Assembly (NCBI GenBank): GCA_034003325.1
Contig: JAVEYW010000003.1
Span: 186,001 to 250,000, forward strand
Direction of reading: 5' to 3'
Source of the DNA: Desulfobacterales bacterium
GTDB lineage: Bacteria > Desulfobacterota > Desulfobacteria > Desulfobacterales > JAFDDL01
DNA length: 64,000 nt
Part shown: positions 955 through 8,973 of the stretch, in pieces
How positions within the stretch are numbered: the stretch's first letter is position 1
Layout: the number at the start of each line of letters is the position of its first letter
Notes under the pieces: generated by a model
Databases searched by the model: none
Told to the model about the DNA's origin: nothing
The model's input: the letters and a program-made list of their open reading frames with translations, nothing else
Program-made: the position numbers and the translations under genes

Positions 955-1467
955 TTGATCGTTATTGATTTGAATCAATCGGCCTATCGTGTCGGTGTTA
1001 TTTCGGACACCCATGGCAGGTTGCGCCCCGAAGCGGCTCGAACCTTACAGGACGTTCAGCTCATCATTCATGCCGGAGATATCGACTCTCCGAACGTCAT
1101 GAGCGCACTCAGGGAAATCGCACCCGTCATCGCGGTTCGTGGAAACATGGATCAAGGTGGATTCGGGCTCAGCCTTCCCGAAACCGAAAGCATTCGAATA
1201 GGCACGCTCAGTGTGCTTGTATTGCACGATATACTGCGTTATTACGGCACCCGTCACGAACAAGATTTTAACCTGGTGATTACCGGCCATACCCACCGGC
1301 CCAATATTACCCGTAGCGGTCCGACGACCCTTCTCAATCCGGGAAGTGCCGGCCCGAAACGGTCCGGCTTGCCGATTTCCATGGCCATTATCGAGTTTGA
1401 GGAAGAACAATTCATCATACGGCATGTTGACCTGGAATCTTTGAACTGTGATAACGGCATCGGGTAA
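955..1467 (+). CDS. YfcE/MJ0936-type metallophosphoesterase
   Basis: Encodes 170 residues beginning with TTG at 955, chosen because a strong AAGGAGG ribosome site (938-944) sits 10 bases upstream. The calcineurin-like metal-binding motifs are in order: D-x-H in VISDTHG, GDID in IIHAGDID, the GNMD segment in VRGNMDQ, and the GHTH motif near residue 110 followed by NPGSAGPKR. These are the ligands of a two-metal phosphodiesterase of the small YfcE/MJ0936 family, cytoplasmic, with no signal peptide. The physiological substrate cannot be read from the sequence. It stands alone between ygiQ and the octaheme cytochrome gene. Confidence 0.85.
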   Translation: MIVIDLNQSAYRVGVISDTHGRLRPEAARTLQDVQLIIHAGDIDSPNVMSALREIAPVIAVRGNMDQGGFGLSLPETESIRIGTLSVLVLHDILRYYGTRHEQDFNLVITGHTHRPNITRSGPTTLLNPGSAGPKRSGLPISMAIIEFEEEQFIIRHVDLESLNCDNGIG

Positions 1468-1556
1468 CGCATGAACAAACATCAACCGGCAACGAGGCCT
1501 CTTTTGACCAAAAGTTTTTATTGCCATCATTGCCGAACCGTTAATCCTAATCCGGC

Positions 1557-1646
1557 AAAGCCGGATGCTGGAAGGCTGGGATGCCGAGAGGCATAAAAGC
1601 CATCTTTCACCTTCAGTGAACATACACGCAAAAAACGTGTATGTTT
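1557..1646 (-). repeat. Dispersed hairpin-bearing repeat, copy 1
   Basis: Read on the minus strand, this stretch matches 41780-41860 on the plus strand. Shared blocks include GAAGGTGAA, GATGGCTTTTATGC, CATCCCAGC and TTCCAGCATCCGGCTTT, with about ten extra bases here in the middle. One end forms a perfect 8-bp stem, CATACACG/CGTGTATG, around a CAAAAAA loop (1621-1643). It lies between the phosphoesterase and the cytochrome gene. No coding function is supported. Confidence 0.6.
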
Positions 1647-1683
1647 TTGATAGAGGGTCTAATATTCTGACATGGAGGTCCTG

Positions 1684-3255
1684 ATGAAACACCAGACGGC
1701 TGCTGTTTTGAGTTTTGTCCTTTTTTTAACCTGTTACACCGTCGCCGCAGCCGGTGCTCCCCCCGTGAGCGAGGCAACCCAGGAGTGTCTGGATTGTCAC
1801 GCCGTATTCCATCCGGGCATCGTGGCGGATTGGGAAAAAAGCCGGCATGCGCAAACCACACCGTCGGAAGCAATGAAAGTGGACGGGCTTTCAAGGAAAA
1901 TTTCTTCGGACAAGATTCCGGAAGAATATACATCCCATGCGGTAGGTTGCGCGGAATGCCATGGATTGAATGAAAAGAGCCATAAAGACACCTTTGAGCA
2001 CAATGGGTATCAGCTTCACGTCGTGGTAACACCACTGGATTGTGCGCTCTGCCATACAACCGAAGCCATGGAATATTCGGAAAATCTCATGGCCCATGCC
2101 CATCACATTCTGGCGTCAAACGATACCTACGAGATGCTGGAAAAATCAATGACCGGTTCTCCTAAGGTCGGCGGCGGTTCGCTTGAATTTTCGAACCCCG
2201 ATGAACGAACAAAGGCTGAAACCTGCTACTATTGCCACGGCACCAAAATCGAGGTGACCGGCCTTGAAACCAGAGAAACGGATGCCGGAGAACAGACGTT
2301 CCCGGTCATGACCGGCTGGCCCAATCAGGGAGTGGGCCGGATTAATCCCGATGAAAGCAAGGGGGCCTGCACACCTTGCCATACTCGCCATCGCTTTTCC
2401 ATGGAGATGGCGCGAAAGCCTTACACCTGCAAGCAATGCCATACAGGGCCGGATGTGCCCGCTTACAAGGTGTATGCGGCCAGCAAACATGGCAATATTT
2501 TCGCATCCCATGAAAAAGGATGGGATTTTACGACCACGCCTTGGACTGTCGGCAAAGATTTCACGGCTCCGACTTGTGCGGCTTGTCATATTAGCTTGCT
2601 GGCCAATACGGATGGCGAACCCATCGCCCAACGCTCTCATCGTATGAACGATCGGCTGCCCTGGCGGTTATTCGGACTCATCTATGCGCACCCTCACCCG
2701 ATTGATCCGGATACATTTAAAATTCGAAATCAAGAAGGCCTTCAATTGCCGACAAGCCTTGACGGAGAAAACGTTTCCGAAGCGCTCATCGATAAAACCA
2801 TTCAGAATCAGCGAAGGGATGCCCTTCAACGCATTTGCCTTTCCTGCCATGATGCCTCCTGGGTCAATGGCCATTGGGAGCGGCTTGAAAACGCGATTGA
2901 GCAAACAAACCGCGCCACCCAAACCGCAACCCGAATCATGAAAAGCATCTGGAACGATTCTTTGGCCAAGGGGCCCGAAAACGGCGGCAGCCCCTTTGAT
3001 GAGTTCATCGAAACGAAGTGGAGCGACATATGGTTGTTCTATGCCAACACCATTCGTTTTTCGGCGGCCATGGGCGGCGGCGGGGACTACAGCGTTTTTG
3101 CAAACGGATATTACCAGCTTTCCAGCGCCATAAAAGAAATGCATGATTGGCATCAGAACAGGACAGAATTACGCAATCTGGCAACCATGTGTCGCCGGTG
3201 GGGGCTATCCGGGAATCGTCAGCCTTCGTCCGCATGGCATGATGCCGTCCAATAA
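1684..3255 (+). CDS. Octaheme cytochrome c, hydroxylamine oxidoreductase (HAO)-like
   Basis: Encodes 523 residues from ATG 1684; an in-frame ATG at 1672 is less likely because GGAGGT (1674-1679) serves as the ribosome site for 1684. An N-terminal signal peptide (hydrophobic residues about 6-24) sends it to the periplasm. Eight CxxCH heme sites are visible, with the first Cys at residues 35, 89, 120, 181, 229, 249, 298 and 385, followed by a C-terminal helical region rich in W and Y. Eight c-hemes in a chain of this length fits the HAO/octaheme nitrite-reductase superfamily. Whether it oxidises hydroxylamine or reduces nitrite or hydroxylamine depends on the crosslinking tyrosine, which I could not place with confidence. 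No partner electron-transfer gene is adjacent. Confidence 0.82.
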   Translation: MKHQTAAVLSFVLFLTCYTVAAAGAPPVSEATQECLDCHAVFHPGIVADWEKSRHAQTTPSEAMKVDGLSRKISSDKIPEEYTSHAVGCAECHGLNEKSHKDTFEHNGYQLHVVVTPLDCALCHTTEAMEYSENLMAHAHHILASNDTYEMLEKSMTGSPKVGGGSLEFSNPDERTKAETCYYCHGTKIEVTGLETRETDAGEQTFPVMTGWPNQGVGRINPDESKGACTPCHTRHRFSMEMARKPYTCKQCHTGPDVPAYKVYAASKHGNIFASHEKGWDFTTTPWTVGKDFTAPTCAACHISLLANTDGEPIAQRSHRMNDRLPWRLFGLIYAHPHPIDPDTFKIRNQEGLQLPTSLDGENVSEALIDKTIQNQRRDALQRICLSCHDASWVNGHWERLENAIEQTNRATQTATRIMKSIWNDSLAKGPENGGSPFDEFIETKWSDIWLFYANTIRFSAAMGGGGDYSVFANGYYQLSSAIKEMHDWHQNRTELRNLATMCRRWGLSGNRQPSSAWHDAVQ

Positions 3256-3273
3256 GCTTCCTGCTTTGCCGGA

Positions 3274-3978
3274 TTAGTCCCGTCGTTGAAATATGGCGAG
3301 GGTTCTTTCCGAGTCAATGAATGGCAGTTGATAGGTTTCCAATGAAAGGGCAAGGCGCTGATCGTCCATAAGCAGCATATCAGGATTGGCGTGTTCAAAG
3401 AATGGGGCGAGTCGGGCCAGCTCCGCTTGGGTCTCTGAAAACCGACCTTTATAGGCGATGAGCTTTCCGCCAGGCGCCAAAAGCGGCAGCGACATCGAAA
3501 CAAAAGCGGAAAGCTCGCATAAGGCGCGACAAACGATCACATTAAAGGCCGGCTTATCGCGGGAATCATTGGCCAGGGTTTCGGCTCGCGTGTAAAGAGC
3601 GGCAATATTCGACACCCCCAGCATTCGAATGACATGGGAAAGAAAGCTCACCTTTTTTCTGATACTGTCAATCAATAAAACGGTAAGTTCGGGCCGCATT
3701 ATTTTCAATACCAAGCCCGGATATCCGCCGCCGGAGCCGATGTCCAGCAGGGCTGCATGTAACGGCAAAACCGGTAAGGCGGCAAAAGCATCAAGTACGT
3801 GTTTAACGGCGATTTCTTCAGGATTCGTAATGGCGGTTAAATTGGTTTTGCGGTTCCATCGCAAAAGTTCGGTTGCGTGTGCTGCCAATAACGCCAGTTG
3901 CGCATCGGAAACCTGAACGCCCAGGCGTTCGCCGCCATCCCGAATCAAGCAGTTCCAGGCCGCATCCCCCAATTCCAT
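3274..3978 (-). CDS. rsmG: 16S rRNA (guanine527-N7)-methyltransferase RsmG
   Basis: Encodes 234 residues. The SAM-binding motif LLDIGSGGGYPGLVLKI lies near residues 76-92, preceded by the family signature WNRKTNLTAI (about 41-50) and followed by the VCRAL segment and LLAPGGKLIAYKGR. This is the RsmG/GidB methyltransferase that makes m7G527 in the 530 loop of 16S rRNA. It is 19 bases downstream of the CoA-transferase/GNAT gene on the same strand and convergent with the cytochrome gene across an 18-bp gap. It is not next to the mnmG/parAB genes that often accompany it. Confidence 0.93.
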   Translation of the reverse strand: MELGDAAWNCLIRDGGERLGVQVSDAQLALLAAHATELLRWNRKTNLTAITNPEEIAVKHVLDAFAALPVLPLHAALLDIGSGGGYPGLVLKIMRPELTVLLIDSIRKKVSFLSHVIRMLGVSNIAALYTRAETLANDSRDKPAFNVIVCRALCELSAFVSMSLPLLAPGGKLIAYKGRFSETQAELARLAPFFEHANPDMLLMDDQRLALSLETYQLPFIDSERTLAIFQRRD

Positions 3979-3997
3979 TCTTCAGCCCATCCCCCGA

Positions 3998-5956
3998 TTA
4001 TTCCGATTTTGTATCGGACGGCGCATCGGGGGTAGGGACGCCTGCCGGCTTTTTTGATTCCATAAAATTCATCAATATGGAGACTTCACCACCGCCGCCC
4101 ATGGTGATAACGGCATTTGGATATCTCTTTTTGAATACTTGAATCATGGCCTGATTTTCTCGCAACACCGTCGCTACAAACCCGGTGTACTCGTTTTCCT
4201 GTGCAATATCTTCAAGCTTTTCCAAAAGGATGGAGGCAATGCCAAGCCCCTGGTGATCCTCCCGGACAACAAATGCAACTTCAGCAAGATTCTCTTCAGC
4301 CGGCGCATAAGAGCCGATACCGACGATTTCCTTGTGTCCTCCTTTCTGACGTAAAGCGATCATCGACATGCTTTTTCGGTAATCCACGCTGGCATATTGC
4401 TGCTGAATGACCTCGTGCGAGAAAAGCTTCATTCGGTAAAAAAATCGGTAATAAATTGTTTTTTCCTGAAGCGAATAGAAGAAATTTCGATAGGCGAACT
4501 CGTCTGAAGGCAGCAAGGGCCGATATTCGAGCATCTTGCCGTTTTTGCATTTTTCCACACTTTTATAGCCCTCCAGAAACAGCAGGTCTTCTTGGGCCGG
4601 TGGCAGTTGATCCGCAAAAATGTAGTGCCGTTTACGGGCAAAATCGATCAGTGCCGCCCTGAATTTCGGGTGCGCGATTTGCGCAAGCTCCATCACCCGC
4701 TGATAAATCCCCTTACCCTGAAGTTCCGCAATGCCATATTCGGTGATAACAAAGTTGACATCGCCGCGGGTGGTGGCGACCCCTGCCCCTTCGCTCAGAT
4801 GCGAAACAATTCTTGATATCGAATTGTTTCGAGCCGTGGAAGGCAGGGCAATGATCGAAAAACCACCTTTGGACATGGCGCTGCCCCTGATAAAATCAAC
4901 CTGATCACCGATACCACTGAAAAAGAGATATCCAAGCGAATCCGTACAAACCTGTCCGGTAAGATCGACTTCAAGGGCGGAACTGATGGAAATCAGGTTG
5001 TCATTTCGGGCGATTTCCGTGGGGTCGTTTACAAATTCGGAGGATTTGAAATAAAAGATGGGATTGTCATTCACGTAATCATAAAGTTTTTGTGAGCCCA
5101 TGCAAAGGGATGCGACCACCCGACCGGGCAATAAGGTTTTTTTTCTGTTGGTCACCACCTTTTTCTCTATCAGATTCATCAACGCATCCGTAACCAGCTG
5201 CGTGTGAACGCCGAGATCTTTTTTCCCTTCGAGGTGTTGCAGCATCGCGTACGGCAAGCTACCGAACCCGATTTGAATGGTGGCACCGTCGTCCACCAAC
5301 TGGGAAACGTAATGGCCGATTCTTCTGAAGACCTCATTATCCGTATTGCCGGGCGGCGCCTCCACAAGCGGCTCTTCATGCCATACCATCACGTCAATAT
5401 CATCCATATGGACGAAACTGTCCCCCCATATTTTCGGCATCTTAGGATTCACCTGTGCGATGACGAGACTCGCATTTTCCATGCCGGCACGGGTGATATC
5501 CACGGAAACCCCGAGACTGCAATAGCCGAATCGGTCCGGCGGACAGACCTGAATCAATGCGACGTCCAACCCGATGCGGTGACTTCTAAAAAGTTCCGGA
5601 ATTTGAGAAAGATAGGCCGGAATATAATCAATTCTGCCTTCAAACGCGGCCCTTCGCATGGGCGTGCTGATGAAAAAAAGTTTCAACAAAAACCGCCTTC
5701 GAAAAGATTCGTCGTCAATATATTGGGATAAAGTAAAGGACATCATTTGATACAGCATGATATCCTGTAAGCGCACATCCGCAATCATGGCCTTAATAAG
5801 GGCCTGAGGCTCCCCGCATCCGGTGCCGATAAATACCCGGCTGCCCCTGCGTATCTTGGAGATGGCCGTGTGAATATCCACCAGCTTGCTACGGCAGTTG
5901 TCCATCGTCCATTCGTAACTTTCTTTTGTGGCAGTGCCGTTGGAATGTGTTGTCAT
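3998..5956 (-). CDS. Acetyl-CoA hydrolase/transferase fused to a GNAT acetyltransferase domain
   Basis: Encodes 652 residues with two parts. Residues about 15-440 form a CoA-transferase/acetyl-CoA hydrolase (seen in FIGTGCGEPQALI near the N terminus, VQIGFG-like IQIGFGSLPYAML, and VNFVITEYGIAELQGKG). Residues about 465-625 form a GNAT domain with the acyl-CoA pyrophosphate-binding motif EDHQGLGIASILLEKL. The architecture is known in deltaproteobacteria as a bifunctional CoA transferase/acetyltransferase; the acyl substrate cannot be deduced. The GNAT part could acetylate a metabolite or a lysine, or only sense acetyl-CoA. The gene precedes rsmG on the same strand and diverges from the Nudix gene. 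Confidence 0.85.
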   Translation of the reverse strand: MTTHSNGTATKESYEWTMDNCRSKLVDIHTAISKIRRGSRVFIGTGCGEPQALIKAMIADVRLQDIMLYQMMSFTLSQYIDDESFRRRFLLKLFFISTPMRRAAFEGRIDYIPAYLSQIPELFRSHRIGLDVALIQVCPPDRFGYCSLGVSVDITRAGMENASLVIAQVNPKMPKIWGDSFVHMDDIDVMVWHEEPLVEAPPGNTDNEVFRRIGHYVSQLVDDGATIQIGFGSLPYAMLQHLEGKKDLGVHTQLVTDALMNLIEKKVVTNRKKTLLPGRVVASLCMGSQKLYDYVNDNPIFYFKSSEFVNDPTEIARNDNLISISSALEVDLTGQVCTDSLGYLFFSGIGDQVDFIRGSAMSKGGFSIIALPSTARNNSISRIVSHLSEGAGVATTRGDVNFVITEYGIAELQGKGIYQRVMELAQIAHPKFRAALIDFARKRHYIFADQLPPAQEDLLFLEGYKSVEKCKNGKMLEYRPLLPSDEFAYRNFFYSLQEKTIYYRFFYRMKLFSHEVIQQQYASVDYRKSMSMIALRQKGGHKEIVGIGSYAPAEENLAEVAFVVREDHQGLGIASILLEKLEDIAQENEYTGFVATVLRENQAMIQVFKKRYPNAVITMGGGGEVSILMNFMESKKPAGVPTPDAPSDTKSE

Positions 5957-6069: not shown

Positions 6070-6510
6070 ATGCCAAATAGTTTATCCCATAGAAATCCGC
6101 TTCTCACAGTTGATATTATTATTGAGATCCCAAGCGGTATCGTCCTTATCCGCCGAAATAATCCACCCTTCGGCTGGGCGTTACCCGGTGGATTTGTCGA
6201 TTATGGGGAAGCACTTGAAACTGCGGCAATCCGTGAAGCCAAGGAAGAGACCGGATTGGATATCGGCTGGCCGGAACAGTTTCATGCCTATTCAGCGCCG
6301 AATCGTGATCCGCGCCATCATTCGGTCACGATGGTGTTTATCGCATCGGCTGCGGGAACTCCCTGTGCAGGGGATGACGCCGGGGCGGCGCGCATTTTCA
6401 ACGAAACGGATCTGCCTAAAAATCTGGCTTTTGACCATGCCCGGATTTTATCGGATTATTTTCGATACAAGGGTGGTGAAAAGAAATCCGTCATTTTTCA
6501 GCATCACTGA
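6070..6510 (+). CDS. Nudix hydrolase
   Basis: Encodes 146 residues from ATG 6070, preceded by AGGTGG at 6058-6063; an in-frame ATG at 6004 lacks such a site and would add an unrelated hydrophobic stretch. The complete Nudix box, G-x5-E-x7-REAKEETGL, is present ([20 protein letters not shown]), flanked by GWALPGG and by an SVTMVFIA strand. Proteins of this size and layout act on ADP-ribose or other nucleoside diphosphate derivatives; the substrate is not determined here. It is a single-gene unit, transcribed away from the CoA-transferase gene. Confidence 0.88.
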
Positions 6511-6615
6511 ACACGACCATCCTTCCTGCCGGGGCCAATTCGATGTTATTTTTCTTTTGAGGACACAGTAGGTTGTAAAAATTTCGACTTTTTTTTAAAT
6601 GTTTTTATGTTTTTA

Positions 6616-6644
6616 TTGACAAAGCGTCACCGAACCTCTACAGT
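6616..6644 (+). promoter_or_regulatory. Sigma-70 type promoter for the EF-G paralogue
   Basis: A perfect -35 TTGACA (6616-6621), a 17-bp spacer and a -10 TACAGT (6639-6644) lie after an A/T-rich stretch. It is about 240 bp upstream of the EF-G start codon, which implies a long untranslated leader. Confidence 0.6.
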
Positions 6645-6700
6645 GCCCCGGCTTGTGAGGGACTCGTCTGAATCGTAGATTCTTCCGCGTTTTTAAAAGG

Positions 6701-6737
6701 GCTTCCTGAAAAGGCACGACTCCGCCTTTCTGGAAGC
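6701..6737 (+). other. Hairpin 1 in the EF-G leader
   Basis: GCTTCCTGAAAAGGC (6701-6715) pairs with GCCTTTCTGGAAGC (6724-6737), leaving an 8-base loop, one mismatch and one bulged A. It is followed by a short pyrimidine stretch (TTTCTTGTT). Confidence 0.5.
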
Positions 6738-6769
6738 TTTCTTGTTATCCGTCAATTTGTCGGCTCGAT

Positions 6770-6813
6770 CCCCAATCGACCCCGCAGGTCGAAACTTGGG
6801 GATTTTATATTTT
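6770..6813 (+). terminator. Terminator-like hairpin 2 in the EF-G leader (possible attenuator)
   Basis: CCCCAATCGACC (6770-6781) pairs with GGTCGA (6787-6792) and TTGGGG (6796-6801), with a three-base bulge, and is followed by ATTTTATATTTT (6802-6813). This has the form of an intrinsic terminator, but it lies between a strong promoter and the EF-G start codon, so it may act as an attenuator. It could instead end transcription from the Nudix gene. Confidence 0.5.
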
Positions 6814-6888
6814 AGGGACCCTTTTCGCATGCAGCACACTTCCGCTTAATCCGAAGTGCACAATGGTTATGAAAAAAGGAACGGCACA

Positions 6889-8973
6889 ATGAAAAACGAA
6901 ATTCAAAAAGTTAGAAACATCGGCATCAGCGCACATATTGACTCTGGGAAAACCACCCTGACGGAACGCATTCTTTTTTATACCAACAGGATTTATGCGA
7001 TTCACGATGTCAAGGGAAAAGACGGTGTCGGCGCCACCATGGATTCCATGGAACTTGAAAAGGAACGAGGAATCACCATCGCTTCCGCCGCGACATTCTG
7101 CGAATGGCAGGGTCACGACATTAATATTATCGACACCCCCGGTCATGTGGATTTCACGATCGAGGTGGAGCGCTCCTTGCGCGTGCTGGATGGCGCCATT
7201 CTTGTTCTCTGTGCGGTTGGCGGGGTCCAGTCCCAATCCATCACCGTGGATCAGCAAATGAAACGGTACCGGGTGCCGTGCATCGCCTTTATCAATAAAT
7301 GCGATCGGAATGGTGCCAACCCGTTTCGCGTCATTGAACAACTTAAGGATAAACTGGGCCACAACGCCGTCGCAATGCAGATGCCTATCGGCTTGGAAGC
7401 GGATCTGGAAGGAATTGTTGATCTGGTTGCGATGAAAGCCGTCTTTTTCGACGGCAGCAACGGGGAAACCCTTCGCTTGGAGGACATTCCCGAAGCGCTT
7501 CTGGCCGAGGCACAGGCCCGGCGGGAAAAATTGATCGATGCTGCCACGATGTTTTCAGACGAATTAATGGAAAGGGTTCTTGAAGAGAAGGATATCCCCG
7601 AATCGCTTCTGATCGAAGCCGTCCGAAAAGGTACCATCGCTCGAAAATTGACCCCTGTTTTTATGGGTTCCGCCTACAAAAACAAAGGCGTTCAGCCGTT
7701 ATTGAACGCGGTCACCGAATTACTCCCCTGCCCGCTTGATGTCGAAAATGAAGCGCTGGATATGGACAAGGGGGAAGCGCCGGTCATTTTGACCGGCCGG
7801 CCGGAAGATCCCCTGGTGGCGTTGGCATTCAAGTTGGAGGACGGCACTTACGGCCAGCTTACCTATATTCGTGTCTATCAGGGGGTCCTTTCAAAGGGGA
7901 CCACCATGCTCAATGTGCGAACCGGCAAAAAGGTGAAGGTAGGTCGTGTTGCCAAAATGCACGCGGACCAAATGGAGGACATTGAGGAGATTCCCGCTGG
8001 CTCCATCGGCGCTCTTTTTGGAATTGACTGCGCTTCGGGAGACACGTTTGTCTCACCCGGCATGAACCTGACCATGACCTCCATGTTCGTACCGGAACCT
8101 GTTATCTCCCTTGCCATTATTCCCATCAATAACAAGGCACAGATTAATATGTCAAAGGCCCTAAACCGGTTTTCTAAAGAGGACCCCACCTTTCGAACCT
8201 CTTTCAATGAAGAGACCAACGAGACGATCATACAAGGCATGGGGGAGTTGCACCTTGAAGTGTATGTCGAAAGAATGCGGCGAGAATACAATGCCGAAGT
8301 GACTACCGGTGCGCCTCAAGTGGCTTACCGGGAAACCATCACCCGCAAAGCGGAATTTAACTATATTCATAAGAAACAAACCGGCGGGTCAGGTCAATAC
8401 GGCCGAGTGGCCGGTTACATCGAGCCGATTATAGACGAGGTGTTTGAGTTTGATAACCAGGTAACGGGCGGTTCCATTCCGACAAATTATATTCCGGCCT
8501 GTGAGAAAGGGTTTCGCCTGTGCATGGTCAAAGGGCCGAAAATGGAGTTTCCGGTTACCGGCGTTCGCGTCGTACTCAATGATGGGGCATCCCATTCCGT
8601 GGACTCATCGGACATGGCCTTTCAGGCGGCAGCCCGAGGCGGTTTTCTTCAGGCCTACGCCAATGCGGGGGCCGTGATCCATGAGCCGGTGATGAAGGTG
8701 GTGGTGGAAACCCCTTCTGATTTTCAAGGCAGTGTAATGGGTTCTTTGAATCAACGCCGCGGCATGATTGTGGGCGCACAGGATGAAGGCCCCATGTGCA
8801 CCATCGAATCACAGGTGCCTTTGTCGGAAATGTTCGGATACGCAACAGCGCTTCGCTCCATGACTCAGGGCCAGGCGCAGTTTACGATGGAATTTTACGC
8901 TTATAAACAAGTACCCCGGCAAATCGCCGAAGAGCTGGCAAAAAAGGCGCAAGAAAAGAAACATGTGGCTTAA
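6889..8973 (+). CDS. fusA: Elongation factor G, mitochondrial-EFG1-like subtype
   Basis: Encodes 694 residues from ATG 6889 (AAAGGA upstream); an in-frame ATG at 6856 would only add a non-family leader. GTPase motifs are all visible: G1 AHIDSGKTT, switch I/G2 ERGITI, G3 DTPGHVDF, G4 NKCD. The later EF-G domains follow, with GMGELHLEV in domain III and [11 protein letters not shown] in domain IV. The signatures [29 protein letters not shown] and [10 protein letters not shown] match the EFG1 of mitochondria and the related spd-EFG1 subtype of spirochetes, planctomycetes and deltaproteobacteria rather than the usual bacterial AHIDAGKTT form. It catalyses GTP-dependent ribosomal translocation. 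It is not in a str operon (no rpsL, rpsG or tuf nearby) and has its own promoter and long leader. Confidence 0.92.

Follow-up and report, generated by a model that had tools for sequence, protein, structure and literature searches.

In many relatives of the Desulfobacterales bacterium studied here, the gene for elongation factor G (EF-G) is preceded by a TTGACA-type promoter, a short AT-rich stretch, a hairpin and a T-run, in this order. The hairpin that many of these relatives have in common, approximately AAUCCCYCAUCUGG-loop-UCCAAAUGAGGGAUUUUUUU, displays covariation in its stem, runs into a U-tract and is specific to EF-G leaders. This attenuator-like leader family tied to EF-G is real and, within the literature searched, undescribed: no such EF-G leader motif is found among the open-access literature matches listed, and the available text of PMC10319736 and PMC10994844 makes no mention of one. 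In the 64,000-nucleotide stretch of DNA that we analyzed (the window), the EF-G gene has a leader of comparable layout, and we consider it reasonably likely, judging from sequence comparison, that this leader is a promoter-proximal intrinsic transcription attenuator of EF-G, working like GraL/greA.

The EF-G gene of the window occupies positions 6889 to 8973 of the forward strand, and its product scored 944 bits against NCBIfam TIGR00484, for which the cut-off is 659. A KDG insertion in switch I marks the spdEFG1 subfamily in the available account of these proteins (PMC3150367), where genomes without EFG I are also described as dividing EF-G work between spdEFG1 and spdEFG2. This insertion is present in the window EF-G (P0001), with the motif inspected in the window protein only, and by this insertion we take the protein to be of the spdEFG1 type. 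The genome encodes two more full-length EF-G-like proteins (42% and 35% identity), one of which, L082, may be the spdEFG2 partner; the upstream DNA of these paralogues (L082 and L083) revealed no such hairpin by eye. Commonly, EF-G is encoded in the str operon and made along with ribosomal proteins. In this genome, the sole S7 gene found adjoins an EF-Tu-like frame elsewhere, with no EF-G match there, thus placing the window EF-G outside the str operon, and the str operon of this genome seems to be without EF-G. There are two EF-Tu-like loci (G000:C1:237872 and 252942), with 37% matches over frames of 408 and 411 aa, one of them beside S7, and it is from these 37% matches that both frames are taken as probable EF-Tu. 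Directly upstream of the window EF-G lies a Nudix gene (Pfam PF00293).

The first-pass annotation of this DNA had described a promoter, TTGACA-17-TACAGT, followed by a leader of about 245 bases holding a hairpin and a second, terminator-shaped hairpin with a U-rich tail, and these elements are indeed present on the forward strand. The sigma-70-type promoter-like site at 6616-6644 has 10 of 12 consensus matches; from its position, transcription would be expected to start about 7 nt past the -10 hexamer, at 6651-6653, and the leader measures 244 nt from the promoter end to the ATG at 6889. The first hairpin (6698-6740), followed by TTTCTTGTT, was seen in minimum-energy folds and as an inverted repeat with two 11-nt arms that are 91% complementary, and no counterpart of it was noticed in the relatives. 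The second hairpin (6767-6804; about -21 kcal/mol), which is the proposed attenuator, comprises an outer stem of GAUCCCCAA/UUGGGGAUU and an inner stem of UCGACC/GGUCGA, and is directly followed by the U-rich tail TTTTATATTTT (6803-6813), an interrupted U-tract, so that a stable hairpin with its U-tract spans 6767-6813 upstream of the coding region. A simple terminator scan did not list this second hairpin, owing, we think, to its interrupted stem. Compared with shuffles, fold stability had z = -3.1 for positions 6690-6820 and z = -2.0 for the whole leader (6645-6892). The surrounding 4 kb contains 8 promoter-like sites vs. 4.1 +/- 1.9 expected from shuffles (about 2 SD above), and the promoter score alone is therefore weak; from the hairpin to the ATG, no such site was detected in the window. 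Closer to the gene, a Shine-Dalgarno-like AAGGAA (6876-6881) would serve for ribosome binding, and a third small inverted repeat, CACTTCCGCTT/AATCCGAAGTG, is situated at 6837-6858, about 30 nt before the EF-G start codon, where it could touch ribosome access.

To compare relatives, we searched for EF-G by protein: one search gave 80 loci, and another found EF-G in 135 of the order's 146 genomes. For 130 of the 136 matches from the latter, counting the window's own EF-G, the upstream DNA was retrieved and read alongside that of the 80 loci. With one and the same detector, applied to EF-G leaders of at least 350 nt and to crudely called ORFs in the fetched DNA as controls, a promoter followed by a terminator-like hairpin within 10-130 nt was found in 70 of 128 EF-G leaders (the window's included) vs. 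before 23 of 278 other ORFs, while any terminator-like hairpin was found in 85 of 128 vs. 61 of 278. An alternative promoter rule gave the promoter-terminator arrangement in 60 of 130. The first-pass annotation had made its reading depend on conservation of the leader in relatives, and this dependence resolves in two ways: the architecture is conserved, as exemplified by the detector counts, whereas the DNA of the window leader is not, with whole-leader similarity in 58 genomes giving a full-length match in the window's own genome only, and two other genomes matching over 29 and 38 query bases in a T-rich and a -35 stretch. The arrangement is lacking in 58 of the 128 leaders with the same detector, and loci titled Desulfobacula (L045-L047) are without the hairpin, indicating that it is not indispensable. 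In L041, L042 and L045-L047 the hairpin is missing and the TTGACA-type promoter is kept; L045-L047 also have another conserved stretch in common (AGCTAAGTTTAA...TAATTTAGCAATAT). A second similar stretch, approximately TTGTTTTAAAAT...ATATTGGAGTATCCT...GGTTAAGTTAAAA, was observed between the hairpin and the ATG in L021, L022, L029 and L050, more diverged in L050, and is possibly a further control element.

The hairpin common to many relatives was captured in a model, R1, built from the hairpins of 22 relatives with that of the window left out. On loci L001-L080, R1 gave 25 plus-strand matches before EF-G at E<=0.01, 22 of which were training members. Over the 146 genomes of the order, 36 had a match 17-313 nt upstream of EF-G on the same strand (12 of these 36 on-target sites having the exact score of a training sequence), and six more matches were the opposite strand of EF-G-leader sites. 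Elsewhere in these genomes, 10 sites were found at E<=0.1, the best at E = 0.0097 and none below 0.009, in a scan that scored about 43 of some 1000-5700 candidates per genome under strict filters and may thus miss weak sites; for one of the 10, in G007, no EF-G match was at hand for comparison. Given where the R1 matches lie, we reject a generic repeat or generic terminator motif as an account of the family. By family labels counted by eye, the 36 R1-positive genomes span about 21 of about 73 families. Across the phylum, R2, the second model by which the family is defined here, matched 13 of 297 genomes at E<=0.01; outside the order, the match in G211 lies before EF-G, those in G179 and G187 lie on contigs other than their EF-G match, and family f103 harbors versions of the strict motif (L260, L264 and L267). 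A different hairpin, approximately AAGGAGTTACAG-loop-CTGTAACTCCTT with a T-run, occupies the same place in L052, L056-L059, L062, L071, L079, L277 and L278, comprising loci titled Desulfobulbaceae, Desulfobulbus, Desulfocapsa or Desulfocapsaceae, the untitled L071 and two phylum genomes; in this AAGGAGTTACAG/CTGTAACTCCTT hairpin, a Shine-Dalgarno-like GGAG is often contained within the 5' arm.

The pairing in this family is borne out by two alignments. Among 52 hairpins, picked by R1 score and aligned on sequence alone, 86.5% of cells were paired vs. 36.9-56.0% in slid versions, 25 cells carried double changes vs. 12.3 +/- 2.9 in shuffles, and the covariation score was 0.228 vs. 0.172 +/- 0.011 in shuffles. 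None of 500 shuffles was as good on three of five measures; on the others, as many as 7 pairs with double changes were reached by 36 of 500, and the count of pair types by 5 of 500, and a slide by +1 column gave equal pairs (7) and equal cells with double changes (25). In the alignment of 23 hairpins that includes the window's, 87.5% of cells were paired (0 of 500 shuffles as good), and double changes occurred in 7 pairs (1 of 500 shuffles) and in 15 cells vs. 5.4 +/- 1.8. The first-pass annotation had proposed a search for covarying homologues of the leader; in relatives, a covarying hairpin family is found upstream of EF-G, of which the window leader is an unproven member. The variable loop length, the G-U pairs and the one-sided U-tract argue for an RNA element, and a DNA operator was rejected on these grounds. 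Near the loop, pairing alone does not account for the conservation of the paired letters C-A-U/A-U-G and G-G/C-C, a hint that a factor recognizes them.

The relation of the window hairpin to this family is one of position and shape. A terminator-like hairpin lies between the TTGACA-type promoter and the start of the spdEFG1-type EF-G (L081 being the window's EF-G). Its sequence is not the family stem (CAUCUGG/CCAAAUG, AUCCC/GGGAU, U7): R1 had no match in the window leader and none at that place in the genome search, and R2 scored the window hairpin at 6.9 bits (E 0.36 in 601 nt), with an unrelated T-rich stretch nearby scoring higher, at 9.3. The spacing differs as well, the second hairpin starting 122 nt after the -10 box as opposed to the usual position within about 50 nt of it, with the first hairpin starting about 53-55 nt after. 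Only the AUCCC/GGGAU base is common to the window hairpin and the family, and this base was unusable as an argument for homology, since the terminator base ATCCC..GGGATTTT occurs at 21 places in the window's own genome. Family membership of the window hairpin is unproven, and we file its leader as a diverged, position-matched example that would work like the family, not as an established member. In addition, a near-identical terminator-like sequence recurs at four places of this genome (G000 contigs C15, C16, C20 and C29); three of these lie no more than about 150 bases from where a contig begins and are suggestive of a repeat at which the assembly breaks.

For the window only, another reading is that its hairpin arose by chance or is an ordinary one, unrelated by descent to the attenuator of the relatives; we regard this as possible and on balance doubtful. 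The same order of elements is present before 23 of the 278 control ORFs, which renders the window's single-genome observation suggestive, not significant, and the missing family sequence and the commonness of the terminator base in this genome fit such a reading. It is countered by the fold stability (z = -3.1) and by L009/L133 of genome G014, in which a promoter, a diverged terminator-like hairpin, a T-run and EF-G follow one another, with a Nudix-type frame directly upstream (similar by eye) as in the window. 

Evidence that the family hairpin is a terminator comes from its U-tract and its spacing. A stem-only pattern, searched in 215 leaders without requiring a T-run, gave 41 matches, 39 of which have a run of at least 5 T in the 12 bases that follow; in comparison, 5.9% of 12-mers in those leaders have such a T-run, and a reversed control pattern matched once. 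This enrichment is strong but not fully independent, since most hairpins behind the pattern had been found with a T-run and the 41 include near-identical ones. For the spacing, each leader's best promoter and best hairpin were chosen independently, with no distance preference. Both were found in 87 of 186 leaders; in 70 of these the hairpin came after the promoter, and in the other 17 before it or overlapping with it. Of the 70, 48 lie 20-50 nt past the -10 box (median 34, middle half 28-49), while the distance from hairpin to ATG over those leaders ranges from 23 to 226 nt, a variation of about tenfold. An earlier form of this statistic, with a score slightly favoring about 45 nt, gave similar values in 94 leaders (median 34, middle half 28-46, hairpin to ATG 23-250 nt). 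Tight spacing from promoter to hairpin in the face of a variable distance from hairpin to ATG points to transcription, not translation. In the relatives whose hairpin lies nearest to EF-G, the gap from U-tract to ATG is about 17-23 nt and cannot accommodate another promoter, so in those leaders transcription of EF-G has to pass the hairpin.

These data also bear on two readings in which termination is not the means of controlling EF-G. In one, which we deem distinctly unlikely, the hairpin would act after transcription, protecting the 5' end of the mRNA or offering a protein site for translational control, with no transcription stop. Conservation of the loop-near paired letters (CAU, GG/CC, AUG) beyond pairing is what one expects of a recognized structure, and the family hairpin is close to the expected RNA start in relatives; yet such a hairpin would not need the U-tract into which 39 of 41 stem matches run, and the tenfold variation in its distance to the ATG speaks against it as well. 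The other, to which we give little credence, holds that promoter and terminator form a small RNA gene yielding a short trans-acting RNA, with EF-G as a read-through by-product or transcribed from another promoter. Target-pairing RNAs usually conserve unpaired seeds, and the conserved letters here sit in paired positions; moreover, the strict motif is tied to EF-G, and some relatives are without room for a second promoter. On the other side, promoter and terminator do make a complete unit that would release an RNA of about 75 nt, and GraL of E. coli is such an RNA from a leader, as described in the portion of PMC6829880 available.

We searched for features that could control read-through. From the promoter-hairpin distances, about 27 nt of RNA would precede the hairpin in a typical relative, too short for the usual aptamer or translated leader peptide. 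Pairing of the pre-hairpin segment with the 5' arm did not reveal an antiterminator in 55 leaders (own minus swapped segments, -0.21 +/- 0.32 kcal/mol); vs. letter shuffles in 92 leaders, pairing with the 5' arm was slightly above expectation (z -0.37 +/- 0.11), and that with the 3' arm was not. When the 3' arm is kept from pairing, the fold of the window leader is weaker by about 10 kcal/mol (-42.8 vs. -53.2). An antiterminator-type attenuator of the rpsL-leader kind is thus unsupported for the family, there being no pairing beyond that of other species' segments. Nor did the pre-hairpin stretch disclose a conserved element, the enriched words being few, short and T-rich or CAGC-like, with no boxA-type element by eye. 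The four hairpins compared for rRNA mimicry with the partly-N 23S-bearing stretch of G114 scored 9 each, vs. maxima of 6-8 for letter shuffles of that stretch and 8-15 for ordinary DNA of other loci.

The first-pass annotation had recognized no open frame and no known riboswitch in the leader, and our results concur. The small frames of the window leader, the longest TTG-started, reach at most 35 aa and are without a clear ribosome site (one GTG-started frame, in frame with EF-G, is excepted from this limit), and a leader peptide was rejected for want of a plausible frame in the window. With Rfam 15 at the gathering threshold, no cis-regulatory match was found in the window, where the sole match is a tRNA, or in 15 relative loci; at E<=10 over 6500-6950, there was a single chance-level match on the opposite strand. 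A riboswitch or known leader was rejected on these results and on those at relaxed E, where all matches fell far below their gathering scores; at one relative's leader, the best of them was RybB (22 bits vs. a gathering score of 40; E 0.016). A ligand-binding riboswitch or a ribosome-mediated leader-peptide attenuator therefore strikes us as very improbable, its support being the unusual length of the window leader, with about 115 nt ahead of the second hairpin, and the additional hairpin there, and its difficulties being the lack of a cis-regulatory Rfam match and of a plausible leader peptide in the window, and of conserved pre-hairpin sequence or antiterminator pairing in relatives. The first-pass annotation had proposed that EF-G may be set by attenuation or by a ligand or protein binding the leader: attenuation has gained from the detector counts (70/128 vs. 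23/278) and the 17-23 nt between U-tract and ATG in some relatives, while the ligand has lost ground with the short pre-hairpin RNA, the lack of a motif and the lack of an antiterminator.

We propose the following course of events: 1) RNA polymerase would start near 6652; 2) the nascent leader would fold into an intrinsic-terminator hairpin ahead of the EF-G start; 3) a fraction of transcripts would end at this hairpin, EF-G being expressed through read-through; 4) the efficiency of termination would thereby set the level of the window EF-G. For the relatives, the architecture and its conservation, the covariation, the U-tract and the tie to EF-G are shown by the data, while termination itself, the same action by the diverged hairpin of the window, and regulation are what we infer. 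Since no recognizable antiterminator, leader peptide or aptamer lies before the family hairpin, we surmise that the share of transcripts reading through is fixed, as a gauge, or else altered by a trans-acting factor that recognizes the hairpin, a candidate being an RNA-binding protein or an RNA-polymerase elongation factor.

The closest known system is the leader of greA in E. coli. According to the available text, its intrinsic terminator lets through about one third of the transcripts, the GraL RNAs set free there measure 37-59 nt, and regulation needs leader sequences beyond the bare terminator (PMC6829880). What the two have in common is a terminator placed soon after the promoter in the untranslated leader of a core gene, with mRNA made by read-through, which for EF-G is a prediction; however, greA encodes an RNA-polymerase cleavage factor in another lineage, and the likeness drawn here is one of architecture. 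Premature terminators have also been predicted before str-operon genes, EF-G among them, in the literature as available; in contrast to the leader described here, those are in the str operon, come with predicted antiterminators and, per their authors in the accessible part, have no globally conserved feature, whereas our EF-G stands alone, no antiterminator was found, and one hairpin sequence is common to many relatives. The rpsL motif of Candidatus Pelagibacter is a structured leader that occasionally precedes fusA, but it is a three-stem junction confined to Candidatus Pelagibacter and marine metagenomes in the available description (PMC2704228), and, in the portion of PMC2965389 at hand, it falls outside the terminator criteria used there. 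Ribosomal-protein leaders, some of them rRNA-mimicking (20 candidates in the available text of PMC7247131), resemble the EF-G leader as leader structures controlling translation-machinery genes; however, EF-G, fusA and elongation factor are not mentioned in the main text of that paper as available, and rRNA mimicry was not seen for the EF-G hairpins against the readable part of one 23S-bearing stretch.

A bolder proposal, which we hold to be rather unlikely, is that the hairpin is a sequence-specific terminator and the receptor for a regulator that acts in trans and is dedicated to it; this regulator could be EF-G or some other sensor of the state of translation. Such control would tune the translocase alone in cells with two specialized EF-G paralogues, through a leader of down to about 70-80 nt without antiterminator, aptamer or leader peptide, and the RNA released at the terminator might double as a small RNA. 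The EF-G leader would be termination control in compact form, with no obvious antiterminator. A conserved, EF-G-specific, terminator-like leader would offer a direct and easily tested answer to how a stand-alone EF-G of the spdEFG1 type is matched to ribosome numbers.
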